NCBI GenBank assembly: GCA_001839685.1
Contig: MLAK01000509.1
Coordinates: 141,538-205,537, forward strand
Direction: 5' to 3'
DNA from: Tritrichomonas foetus
Lineage: Eukaryota; Parabasalia; Tritrichomonadida; Tritrichomonadidae
Length of the DNA: 64,000 nucleotides
Part shown: positions 44,669-50,311 of the stretch, one piece after another
Numbering within the stretch: position 1 is the first letter of the stretch
Layout: each line of letters starts with the position of its first letter
Translations under genes and position numbers: made by a program
The notes under the pieces: generated by a model
The model's input: only the letters and a program-made list of their open reading frames with translations
Told to the model about the DNA's origin: nothing
Databases searched by the model: none

Positions 44669-44721
44669 ATGACGCCTAATTGGATGATTATAATGAATGA
44701 TTGCATGATTCCATGTATTAA

Positions 44722-44735
44722 GGGGCAACTGACAT
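44722..44735. repeat. Left terminal inverted repeat
   Basis: GGGGCAACTGACAT, next to TTAA at 44718-44721. Matches the right repeat perfectly for 14 bases, after which the ends diverge. Confidence 0.93.
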
Positions 44736-44914
44736 CACATCGAGCTATATCAAAATTTTGAAGCAGCTCTATGAATGATTTAGAAAAAGTTATGTTACTA
44801 GAATTATTGAAAAAGTTTCTTTCACAATTTTATCAACTTTTTCATTGAAATATTTTCAATAATCCCTGAAATTATATTATTCAATTTTTTTACTAAAAAT
44901 CCGCCATTTTCAAA

Positions 44915-47673
44915 ATGGATAAAGTGTTTGTTCCAGCGAATAAACTAACTTTTTTCTATCCCTATATATTTTGCTATCACCATTCACTACAGGGAAGCAA
45001 AATGCGAAGAACTGCAATTGAGCAGGCTTTGAAAATCTGCAATATTCCTATTACAACCTATAATATCAATCAAATGCGCTTGTTTTTTCACAAAAACTGT
45101 CATCTGATTCAAACAAAGAATTATGTAGATTCAAAAGCTCCAAATTTCCCGGAGAAACAAACTTTTCATGAATGCAATAATAAATTTCACTTATTGTCGT
45201 TTTCTCATACAGAGATAATTAATGTACCGGCAATTAGTGAATATATAGATGTTCAAAACTATATTGATTCAATGAATAAAACGGAAATTATCAGTTTGCT
45301 CCAAAGCAACCCAAATTTTGATCAATTTCAATGCAGAATTGAAAATGAGTTATTAAAAAAGGAACATAACCGTTTGAAACAAAAGATCTCGTCATTGACA
45401 TATGAAAACACTCAGTTAAAACAAAAAATAACCGAATTAAATAGTTCTTTTTGCGAATTATCTAATAAATTCAGTGAAATAAAAGCCAAATCCGAAAAAA
45501 AAATCTTTTACATAAAATATGTAATGAAAAAGTTGATCCTCTTCAATTTACGCTCAGTTGCCTGACAGAAGGTTTATCATTTAGTCAAGCTGAACGATTT
45601 CTGGCTAAATTAAATATAGCCACAATCTCAGAAAAGCATTATTTACGTTTAACTAAAAAAGTGGATGAGATATTAAATGATTTAACAAATGAATCATTGA
45701 GAAATGCTCGCTCTATGATGAATGAAAAGTCAAGCATTTCATTTGATTCTGCTTGGTCTCACCCAAGAAATGCACATGAATGCTTTGGTGCTTTCATAGA
45801 TTTAGCAACACAAAAGATAATTGACTATTATGTAGTGTCATTAAAAAGCCATTGGTCTATTGGAAATTGCGAAGGATTTCCCCAGTCACTTGAATCAGAA
45901 ATTTTAAATAAATTAAGTTCTAAATGGTGTTCATTATCAAAAATAGATAGTATCACAATGGATAACGATAACAATGTAGGTGGAATATTTACTAAGTTGA
46001 ACTGGAAAATTATTCAATTTATAGATGTAAATCACGCATATAAGCAATTTAAAAACCGTTTTCTTAAATTTAATTTCGACAATAAAAATATATTTTCAGA
46101 TATAATCAAGTCTTTTTTAAAATTCGTTAAAGTCCTGATGCTTGACAGAGATTTACCTCTGATAACAAAAAAAGAACAATTTTTTAATATTACAGAACAT
46201 TTTTCGAATAACCATCAGAAATGTTTGCATGAGAATTTAATTGATTTTAAAATTCCAGCTTTTGCGAAAAATATTAATTTAAAAAATAGACTTGATACGT
46301 TTCTTGATGATAATGTTATTATCTTTGAAAAAACAGAACCCCATAAGAATACTCAATGTAATGAAAGTTTACATTCACTCAAAATCAAACTGGCTCCCAA
46401 AAATAAATCTTGGAAAATGACTTTTTCAACCAGAATGAAAATTACGGTTTTACTTTGGAATGAGGGGCACAAGTTTTATTACCAGCTCATGAACAATTTT
46501 AATATCGCAGAATTAAATGATCATAATAAACAAATTATCGATAAATATATACTGCGAAAAACCCTAAACAAAGAAAAGCAACAAACAGAAAAATATATAC
46601 AACAAAAAAACAAAACTAGAAATCTTAGGAGACAATCAGGGAGGAAAGAAGGTGATTACAAATTAAAGAAAGTTTTCACTCCAATAAATATAGAATTTCG
46701 GGAAACTGATGTCCTTCATTCAGATTTCAAAGAAGAAGAAGAAACAAACGATTTAGATTTTCGTGAAACCAACTTCAATTCACCTGAAGAAGATTCTTTT
46801 TTTAAGGACATCAATGCAGATGATTGGTTTTCTATGACCATTTTCGATTTGTTTAACTTTGGGAAACTATTTCTTGATCAAGCATTACTAGGAAATATTT
46901 TTCGTTTATATAATATAGCTAATAATTGTTACATAAACAGTGGAATTCAATTATTAATGAGTTCAGAGCATTTTCGAACTAAGCTATTATTATTCAATAA
47001 AGAAGACGATTTGTTATTATTTTTGAAAAAATGTACAAAAGACATCGTTAACAAAAGAGATATTGATTATATAATAAATTATTATATTAATAATTCTACA
47101 CAAACAATCAAGTACAATGAAAAAGGAGATACCTCTGCGTTTTTACTATTTTTATTGAACGACTTAGAAGAAAAATATAATATGATAGCAAATATGACTG
47201 GATTTATTGCTAAATCCATTTTATGCTCACAATGTGGCGCTCGAAATGAAGTGTTGGAAAATAACCTACTTTACTCAATTTCATGCTCTGAATTACAAAA
47301 TATTGAAGATTGTTGTAAAAATGAACCTATAAATGATAGTATTTGTCAGTTCTGTAGAAATACTCCTTTAATGATGACTCAAATTGTGTCCATCAACATT
47401 CTCTTAATTATTCATTTAACTGATTCGAATTATGAACAAATTTTTCACATCAAAGAAACACTTCATATAAATCAAAAATTATATTCAATGAAATCGATAG
47501 TTTATTTCCGAGATTTACCAGATTCTGGGCATTATTTCGATGTAGTACGCCAAAATAATAAGTGGTTCTTGATTTCAGATTCATTTATCAATCAAATAAA
47601 AAGTCCTTTTGAGATTGACAAAAAATCACGGCCAGAAATTTTATTATATGAGCAAATTATGCAGGATCTGTAA
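44915..47673 (+). CDS. Transposase-USP fusion, interrupted by a -1 frameshift
   Basis: The first frame (44915 to about 45500, about 195 residues) holds a possible DNA-binding region and a coiled coil (about 150-195). A run of nine A (45495-45503) then shifts to the -1 frame, open to 47673, which continues with LSCLTEGLSFSQAERFLAKL. The transposase core has FDSAW (Asp codon 45745), DVNHAYK (Asp 46024) and NESLHS (Glu 46363), followed by APK and WNEGH as in Kolobok-type DDE enzymes. A basic linker precedes a USP domain at 46900-47670: NIANNCYINS (Cys codon 46927), paired CSQC and CQFC for zinc, and SGHYFDVV (His codon 47530) with a later ISDS. A transposase joined to a deubiquitinase is not one I know. 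The joint may need -1 frameshifting, polymerase slippage or one missing A. Confidence 0.82.
45495..45503 (+). other. A9 run at the frame change
   Basis: Nine A between the two transposase frames. The upstream frame reads GAA AAA AAA ATC and the downstream frame CGA AAA AAA AAT. A -1 slip or one added A joins them; a sequencing or assembly error is also possible. Confidence 0.7.
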
Positions 47674-48107
47674 GAGATTATAAAAACAGGAGGGGAAAAA
47701 TAAACAATTAAGTAACTATTTTTTTATAATATATAAATATTTTATCGATTTTATTACTTTTAAAATAAGTTAAAATTCCCACGCTATATGCATGTTTATC
47801 TAAAACTGTATCGCCAAAACTTGATCACAAAATCATATGAAATTGCACCATTTTTTCTTGCGCAAAAGTCTTCATTATTCGATATATATATATTATTGCA
47901 TACCAATTAAAGAATAAAAGAAAGCATTACTAATCTTCTGATAAAGAGAATTTTTTTCGATTAATATGATCATTTGAATGCACACAGAAAAAAAATTGAA
48001 AGAACTATTTTTTATGCATTCAATTCTTTTCTGATAAATCCTGTCAAATNACGATTGAGAGATCACATAGAAACAATCANTTCATTTTTTTCATTCGGTC
48101 ACTTCAT

Positions 48108-48121
48108 ATGTCAGTTGCCCC
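48108..48121. repeat. Right terminal inverted repeat
   Basis: ATGTCAGTTGCCCC, the exact complement of the left repeat, followed by TTAA at 48122-48125. Confidence 0.93.
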
Positions 48122-50311
48122 TTAAAGAAATTTGCGTCAAACTCAGCAAAACAATTGAAAGGTACATTCTTAATTTTCCACAATCTAATCATTATTCTTG
48201 TACATATGAAACACACTTAAGTGATGCAAATGATATCATTTCAGATATATTTAATGGAATTCAAATTAGAATTGATCACAAGAATTGTAGATTCTTAGAA
48301 GCAATATCATCTCAATTAGAAATTGAAGATTTACAGAAAGAAGTTTCTGATTATATTAAGTTTTATGGACATTTTGAGAATTATGCGAATATAAGCGCAG
48401 AATTTTCAAAATTAATGGATTTAGAAAATAGTTTTCAAAATTTAAATATGAATAACTTTGATTCATTGATTCTAAAGTGTAGGCACGTAAGTGCTGAAAT
48501 CGTTGCAAGTTTTATATTCAATTTTTGTATAGCTTATCCAAAGAAAATAGAGATTTATATAGAGTTCCTACAAAAACTTGTTCCAACTAAGATTATAAAT
48601 TGCTTTAAGCAAAAAATTATCAACGAATATCGTAGTTTGTCAGATTCAACACCAAAAGAAGTAATTTTCATATCGAAAATATTATTTAACAAAAATATAA
48701 TTACTGAACACGAATTAGGGAACAAGTTTCCTCAAATATTTTTAAATTCAATTTCCATTGATAAAATTGTTGTTGGTAAATATGAAGAAAAAGTGAATGC
48801 TCATAACTTTAATATTAGTTCACACATTATAAATTGTAACAGTGGACTAAGCTCAAATCCAATCATTGCTGCACTCCGTGAAGATAATTTAACGGCACTT
48901 CAAAGAACGGGTGTAGGAGTTAGCATAAATTGCAATGATTGTGCATATAGTGAATACTATGATCGTTTCAGCTGTACAAGAAAACCAGTTCCATTGATAT
49001 GTATTGCAGCATTTTTTGGAGCTGCGAAATGTTTTCGATTTTTGATACCTAACATTAAACCAATTCCAAATAATCTTGGAGTATATGCTGTTCAAGGTGG
49101 AAACATCGATATCATTGCACATTGTGAATCGTTAAATGTTGATTTCAGTGATTCTGTAATTGAAGCATTAAAATATCATCATCATAACATTGTTGAATGG
49201 TTGCTTGAGTGCAGAGAAATTCATATAGATGATGATATTTTTATTGAAAAGTGTATTCAATATTGTACATTTAATTCATTGAAATTAGCTCTTATGATGG
49301 GATTTAATTATAAATATATTATTCATTATTCAGCAAGATACGGTAATATTTTATTGTTGAAATGGTCAAATGGATTAAATTTCCTTCAAAATTTTGATCC
49401 TTTTAAATCTAAAAAAGATGATTTCCTTCCAATTCATTATACTTGTAAATTTGGATGGGTGGATTGTTTTGACTACGTATTGAATCAAGATCAGAGTCTA
49501 ATTAATGAAAAAGGGGTTTATTTTTTCCATTTTTATCATGTTTATCCTTTTTTTCAGAAAGTTTTCATGAAAAAATTAATGATTTAACACCACTTCATTA
49601 TGCATGTATAAATGGATGCTATGAAATTGTACATAGTTTAATTCTACACCCAGATTTGAATTTAAATCCCATTGATTTGAAACATATTTTATATTTAAAT
49701 ATTTATCGAAGACCACTTCATTTTGCTGTAAGGTATAATTATCCTGATATTGTAAAAGCACTTCTTTCACATTCAAAGACTGATGTTAATGTACCTAATA
49801 ATGTGGGAATTAATTTTGTTTATTGATTGTACTCCTTTCCATCTTGCTTGCTATCCTGGATATGAAGAAATCCTTGATAGTTTTCTGTTAGATCCTAGAA
49901 CAGATGTAAATGCTACAGATAAAAATGTATTTGATATTTTTTATGGTGTTTTTATTGCAATTAAAAATACCCCACTTATTCAAATGTGTAATTATCGACC
50001 ACAAGAATATATAGGGCAAGTTAAAGATTTTGACCAAATATATATTCCTAAACTATTGAGACATCCCAGAATTAAAATAAATCATCAAAATTATTTAGGT
50101 GTCATTATATTATTTTAATTTTACAGCCCTTCATGCTGCATGTAAGAAAAATAAAGTTGATGTGATAAAAATTCTACTTTCCATGCCAGGAATTCTGAAA
50201 TTTTTAAAGGATAAAATCCATTCTATTTCTCATCAAGGTTCATTTTAATATTAAAGAAAAACTCCTATTGATTATTCTCAAAGCAAAAGCACTGCATCAT
50301 TATTCCTGTAA

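Follow-up and report, generated by a model that had tools for sequence, protein, structure and literature searches.

Several transposons are known to encode proteases of the ubiquitin or SUMO pathways. In T. vaginalis, the protein XP_001314237.1 combines transposase_11 and peptidase C19 domains, as mentioned in 2010 in a passage of PMC2836005 (citing Gladyshev and Arkhipova, 2009); the preliminary description of the locus studied here had named no known case of a ubiquitin-specific protease (USP) joined to a transposase, and was mistaken on this point. According to passages of PMC9741609, transposon VTD domains are active deubiquitinases, and the authors suggest that in Helitrons they shield transposition proteins from the proteasome. 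For the Kolobok superfamily, whose elements target TTAA, an N-terminal THAP domain is described as usual in a passage of PMC6004289.

We analysed a window of 64,000 nucleotides (the whole stretch of DNA under study) from the genome of Tritrichomonas foetus (63.7 Mb in 1064 contigs). T. foetus is a parasite of cattle, and the window carries, at 44,722-48,121, an element with 14-bp terminal inverted repeats: GGGGCAACTGACAT at 44,722-44,735 (forward strand) and its exact reverse complement at 48,108-48,121 (reverse strand), both identified by inverted-repeat comparison. A TTAA target site duplication lies on either side (44,718-44,721 and 48,122-48,125), as read from the sequence and from the comparison of ends among copies; including the flanking TTAA, the two arms are 18 nt long and 100% complementary. 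The perfect repeats and the TTAA duplication of the preliminary description are thus both present, and a search for copies with the same inverted repeats, which it had proposed, gave 11 loci with both exact ends. Among the 25 of 28 loci whose ends were compared (L001 is the window copy; L013, L017, and L018, in which neither exact end occurs, lay outside the comparison), TTAA adjoins all 19 visible 5′ ends and all 16 visible 3′ ends, and the flanks differ; L028, which matches at 83%, extends to neither end. The terminal dinucleotide of the element ends is GG, that is RR, a feature of the Kolobok superfamily. Seven copies are full-length, with DNA identities of 97.6-100% when gaps are counted; many more are partial. 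The seven show few base differences and vary mostly in length, which comes from runs of A or N at an A tract (see below), a 25-base deletion in L005, and, in four of them (L003, L004, L006, and L007), 45 bases inserted close to the 5′ end, after element position 96. Since near-identical copies are dispersed through the genome, with TTAA at all visible ends and differing flanks, the window element is a Kolobok-like DNA transposon of T. foetus that moves by cut-and-paste into TTAA sites and was mobilised recently. Koloboks of T. vaginalis were reportedly treated by Meng et al. in 2011.

Two further observations concern the element and its surroundings. By eye, the 45-base insertion is an imperfect tandem duplicate of element positions 52-96 (window 44,773-44,817). 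At 47,965-49,587, a 540-aa frame runs from the right end of the element into ankyrin/DUF3447-like sequence, with ankyrin/DUF3447 matches at or below the cut-off; the element is directly beside or inside this putative ankyrin/DUF3447-like gene.

The main coding feature is a 731-aa open frame on the forward strand (45,478-47,673; open reading frames and Pfam scan) that contains both a transposase and a USP. It is preceded in the window copy by a separate forward frame of 222 aa (44,897-45,565; in-frame ATGs at 44,915 and 45,002), an N-terminal coding part with weak coiled-coil-type matches only. The two frames join at a tract of nine adenines (45,495-45,503, forward strand), where N is placed in some other copies; L002 and L006 each have one 928-aa frame that is continuous across the tract, with N inside it, so that its length is ambiguous in the assembly. 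Because the first methionine of the 731-aa frame falls within the transposase domain, the 222-aa and 731-aa frames are most simply parts of one protein. The DDE transposase core (45,544-46,400, forward strand) was recognised by the Pfam Mutator family PF20700 over residues 23-250 of the 731-aa frame (8.6e-13; 48.4 bits against a cut-off of 26.5). Its triad consists of D90 (45,745), D162 (45,961) or D164, and E296 (46,363), residues that sit in motifs common to diverged related transposases in the alignment; a putative H2CH zinc finger, another Kolobok superfamily feature, is present as HFSNNHQKCLH (H241-C249-H251). The Kolobok-like DDE core of the preliminary description is therefore borne out. 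The label remains Kolobok-like only, since no THAP domain was found in Pfam scans of the 222-aa frame (E up to 1) or the 928-aa frame (E up to 0.1). An acidic linker (46,672-46,851, forward strand; net charge −14 over 60 aa) follows the core, giving the protein order coiled-coil-like N-terminus, DDE transposase, acidic linker, USP.

The USP (peptidase C19) domain occupies 46,903-47,649 on the forward strand, as defined by Pfam UCH, residue boxes, and profile search. The UCH match covers residues 476-724 and positions 2-254 of the 254 in the profile (1.3e-13; 51.6 bits against a cut-off of 23.9). The catalytic Cys484 (46,927) lies in NNCYINS, with an Asn five residues ahead of it, and His685 (47,530) lies in GHY; CxxC pairs are found at 583/586 (47,224/47,233) and 623/626 (47,344/47,353), in agreement with the Cys, CxxC, and His boxes from which a USP-class domain had been proposed. 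By alignment, the third and fourth critical residues are Ser700 and Asp701 (47,575-47,580). Human USPs carry Asp, Asn, or Ser at the third critical position, and activity is documented for USP16, USP30, and USP45, which have Ser there, according to a passage of PMC10867860; thus the active-site residues of the window USP look competent, with a Ser-Asp pair like that of active human USP30. The domain alone finds USP12 at 4e-5 in PHMMER, and a profile made from four families of transposon USPs (see below) finds USP46 at 1.1e-13 over positions 15-298; in this sequence-profile comparison the four USPs match the solved USP46 and USP12 chains across the whole domain. With E up to 0.01, the best 60 of the 93 distinct sequences matched by the profile are all named as hydrolases of ubiquitin or ubiquitin-like proteins. 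A single-sequence predicted model of the USP region has a pLDDT of 32, too low for fold comparison. Chance similarity to USPs was considered and rejected, given the full-length UCH match, the presence of USPs in diverged families, and the four-family profile match.

The fusion recurs among the copies, which argues against the one-off that would have undone the preliminary description. The USP is retained at 100% identity over 266 aa in 15 copies, and nine of the 11 copies with both ends keep it whole; in L015 (C436) a stretch with the Cys box is lost, leaving part of the domain, and in L023 (C455) an internal deletion has removed both the transposase core and the USP. A diverged copy on C373 retains pieces of the USP at 82-88% protein identity, and the remaining match, on C159, is weak and belongs to a frame with its own strong UCH match. 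The many gaps in the assembly, one of them at the A tract, could suggest that the fusion is an artefact of assembly or annotation, or that the element inserted next to a USP gene of the host; however, 731-aa frames free of N occur in C148, C201, and C585, and these together with the whole USPs lying between the two ends make such an explanation practically negligible. The presence of transposase and protease in one frame is also what is seen in viral polyproteins, so that the USP might process the element's own polyprotein. USPs normally require ubiquitin at the cleaved bond, though, and the 928-aa frame has no match to a ubiquitin-like domain with E up to 0.1; we regard such self-processing as very improbable.

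A genome search with the transposase alone identified diverged Kolobok-like relatives (24-33% identity for those named here), among which we distinguish families B, C, and D from family A, that of the window element. All three have a transposase, an acidic linker, and a USP in the same order as family A, one family being present only in damaged copies. In family B, the two domains of L051 are encoded in separate frames (UCH 2e-14), and a 406-aa frame of L054 covers the end of a damaged transposase together with part of a USP (24.0 bits, cut-off 23.9). In family C, the second half of the transposase shares one frame with the USP in L050 (UCH 8.8e-9) and L055, the first half lying upstream past one stop in L050; L049 and L063 are broken copies with further C-like USP pieces. 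In family D, both domains of L062 lie in one 770-aa frame that reaches the end of the contig, and a second copy (C437) matches it at 100% over residues 51-770. The UCH match of L062 is 4.5e-5 at 23.6 bits, just below the cut-off of 23.9, and its assignment as a USP relies on its Cys and His boxes and on the arrangement of parts that it has in common with the other families. A strongly acidic stretch of 60 aa separates transposase and USP in all four families (net charge −14 to −22); the most basic stretch lies directly before it in A, B, and C but not in D, whose corresponding region carries +8 over 71 residues. As a separate observation, L049 (C592, 1384-3678, reverse strand) contains, ahead of the Kolobok-like transposase, a 765-aa frame that matches the ankyrin-type DUF3447 weakly (below the cut-off), and its USP piece follows the transposase in another frame.

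The same genome also contains Kolobok-like transposases that lack a USP, which indicates that the superfamily as such does not need one. The transposases of L052, L056, and L057 score above the Mutator family cut-off, and tblastn with five transposon USPs (E up to 0.01) gave no USP in these three loci; L053 lay outside that search. Inverted ends with TTAAGGGTG were recognised in L052, L053, and L056, so that the solo loci include whole elements. A tree of nine transposases splits the five USP carriers from the four solo rows (support 77/66, and in 73% of 200 bootstrap trees). Because the transposase tree groups the five carriers, a single gain of the USP within the Kolobok-like group appears likely, although it is not proven.

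A second, unrelated type of carrier was found in the UCH survey of the genome, where six equal-scoring 747-aa frames are among the matches listed. The element (L061) is a repeat of ∼2.7 kb that encodes a USP at the N-terminus (6.8e-24) and a DDE_3 transposase at the C-terminus (7e-23; 81.5 bits against a cut-off of 28.6); it is called IS630-like only, since its 71.7 bits with the NCBIfam IS630 model are under the cut-off of 100. Eight copies have an open frame with 100% identity over 725 aa, and a copy on C826 is partial; the carrier loci are L061, L059, L060 (C21, C202), C71, C169, C281, C340, C627, and C849. TA precedes CAGTCG at the 5′ end in all three loci considered (C21, C202, and C281), two of whose 3′ sides run into N. 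By alignment, the active site of the IS630-like USP is canonical. Public records list the protein as TRFO_12536; TRFO_27008, a relative of 651 aa, shares its two-domain make-up, and the two agree at 156 of 279 aligned positions of the USP region (56%) and at 98 of 119 of the DDE region (82%). There are also shorter DDE_3 frames in the genome (for example, twelve of 289 aa), too short for both domains. Over a dozen stretches of ∼250 bases align with the 5′ terminus of the IS630-like element (e.g., C702:80001-80251 and C340:23955-24205); several have inverted pieces nearby, and they are probably short non-autonomous derivatives of it. On C373 (7442-19820), a diverged copy of the window element is split by ∼10 kb that include a diverged IS630-like USP element (C373:9014-11474), apparently one USP transposon nested in another.

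Whether the USPs have been kept for catalysis can be judged in part from their conservation. Families A, B, and D and the IS630-like carrier keep the Cys, the His, and the fourth-position Asp in their USPs, even though identity among the Kolobok-like USPs is only ∼20%; this retention is a better argument that the USP may be under constraint than substitution ratios, which support constraint weakly. Between family A and the C373 copy, the USP has a ratio of 0.57 (7 synonymous changes in 103 sites, 17 nonsynonymous in 434) and the transposase one of 0.43-0.53, in both cases with few changes and with stops present; the recent family A copies have too little change for a selection test. For B1 and B2, two damaged copies of family B, the ratio is 1.6 in the USP on 15 changes and 0.36 in the transposase on 22, which would speak against constraint on the USP between these two. 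In family C the oxyanion position is occupied by Gln and the third and fourth critical positions by Asp-Gly, and a broken relative on C263 has Arg instead of His, so that some carriers may be inactive. These changes, the B1/B2 ratio above one, and the lower conservation of the USP than of the DDE region in the IS630-like pair would all fit a captured host fragment with a binding or structural role, or a passenger, for which catalysis is not needed. Fragments would be at hand in a host genome that is very USP-rich, with at least 143 UCH/USP matches (matches rather than genes, some genes counting twice). We nonetheless find a captured fragment of this kind doubtful, given the critical residues kept at such low overall identity and the two unrelated transposase types that carry a USP.

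A tree of the five transposon USPs and 17 other USPs of the genome, in which long branches met, does not point to a particular source for the transposon USPs. In this tree the USP-like domain of a 465-aa frame (L069; C326:127951-128808) pairs with the family C USP (91/94, with long branches); L069 is possibly a domesticated or remnant transposon copy. Searches of a large protein set, in which candidates were limited to those sharing short exact words, gave nothing for the Kolobok-like proteins beyond this genome's own protein (one of these searches scored only the candidates sharing most words, so that distant relatives could escape) and two T. foetus proteins for the IS630-like protein. The public records name the IS630-like protein only as a hypothetical or USP-domain protein. 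Names without a transposon label mean that deubiquitinase counts in trichomonads may include transposon genes; for T. foetus, where some UCH/USP matches are transposon-borne, they may be inflated.

Overall, we favour the reading (with a probability of roughly 55%) that the window holds a recently mobile Kolobok-like element whose fused USP is active and whose likeliest job would be to spare the transposase complex from the proteasome. The transposase part would bind the element ends and cut and join at TTAA, while the USP, as an active deubiquitinase held beside the transposase and the element ends, would remove ubiquitin nearby. Stripped from the transposase, its DNA complex, or nearby chromatin proteins, ubiquitin would no longer lead to removal by the proteasome before transposition ends. 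Because a deubiquitinase is repeatedly tethered to a transposase, protection from the proteasome is the cheapest explanation; the parallel suggestion made for Helitron VTD domains (in passages of PMC9741609) also points to self-protection. The main alternative is that the USP acts on host factors, either by removing ubiquitin from histones or silencing proteins where the element leaves and inserts, or by steering DNA repair after excision. Tethering through the transposase would place the deubiquitinase on chromatin, and transposon Ulp1 and OTU domains have been proposed, in a passage of PMC2836005, to act on repair factors; on the other hand, the 928-aa frame has no Pfam targeting domain, and we consider host factors a somewhat unlikely target, if one still to be reckoned with. 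The function put forward in the preliminary description, deubiquitination of the transposase or of a host silencing factor, is plausible. The occurrence of USPs in two unrelated transposons suggests that ubiquitin is a recurrent obstacle for such elements. With several Kolobok-like families and an IS630-like element that bears its USP at the opposite end, all in one genome, an anecdote becomes a pattern, which makes the limitation of transposases by ubiquitin testable.

Compared with the described systems, the window element resembles T. vaginalis XP_001314237.1 in being a trichomonad fusion of a DDE-type transposase and a C19 (USP) peptidase; it differs in its type of transposase, that of T. 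vaginalis being transposase_11 (pfam01609), and the passage in PMC2836005 describes no element ends or copies. Ginger1, treated in the same paper, likewise has a DDE transposase joined at its C-terminus to a protease from the ubiquitin/SUMO pathways, but the protease is OTU or Ulp1 rather than USP, and the transposase is Gypsy-integrase-like. Similarly, the Mutator-type transposons with ULP1 cited there are DNA transposons with a protease for a ubiquitin-like modifier, although ULP1 acts on SUMO and the transposase belongs to another group. The Helitrons with VTD and OTU deubiquitinases share with the window element a deubiquitinase encoded by a transposon, but theirs is joined to a rolling-circle RepHel protein and the VTD class is not USP, according to passages of PMC9741609. 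With the Kolobok superfamily, as characterised in a passage of PMC6004289, the element shares the TTAA target, purine-purine termini, DDE, and H2CH, and it differs in the C-terminal USP that has been added and in having no detected THAP domain.

Within T. foetus, the Kolobok-like and IS630-like carriers suggest that USPs may have been recruited repeatedly. The transposase_11 family of Pfam (PF01609) is also a DDE-type transposase, and it has no match in the T. foetus genome. As a tentative extension, short of what we would argue for, at least three unrelated DDE types of trichomonads could each have acquired a USP independently (at the C-terminus of Kolobok-like transposases, at the N-terminus of IS630-like ones, and in the published transposase_11 protein), with host ubiquitination as a standing defence and the deubiquitinase as a convergent counter-defence. 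USPs in Kolobok-like or IS630-like transposons were not found in the literature searched, which is weak evidence, since subscription papers were mostly outside it and wording varies. Thus, a USP-transposase fusion as such was already known, and what is new is the presence of USPs in Kolobok-like and IS630-like transposons.
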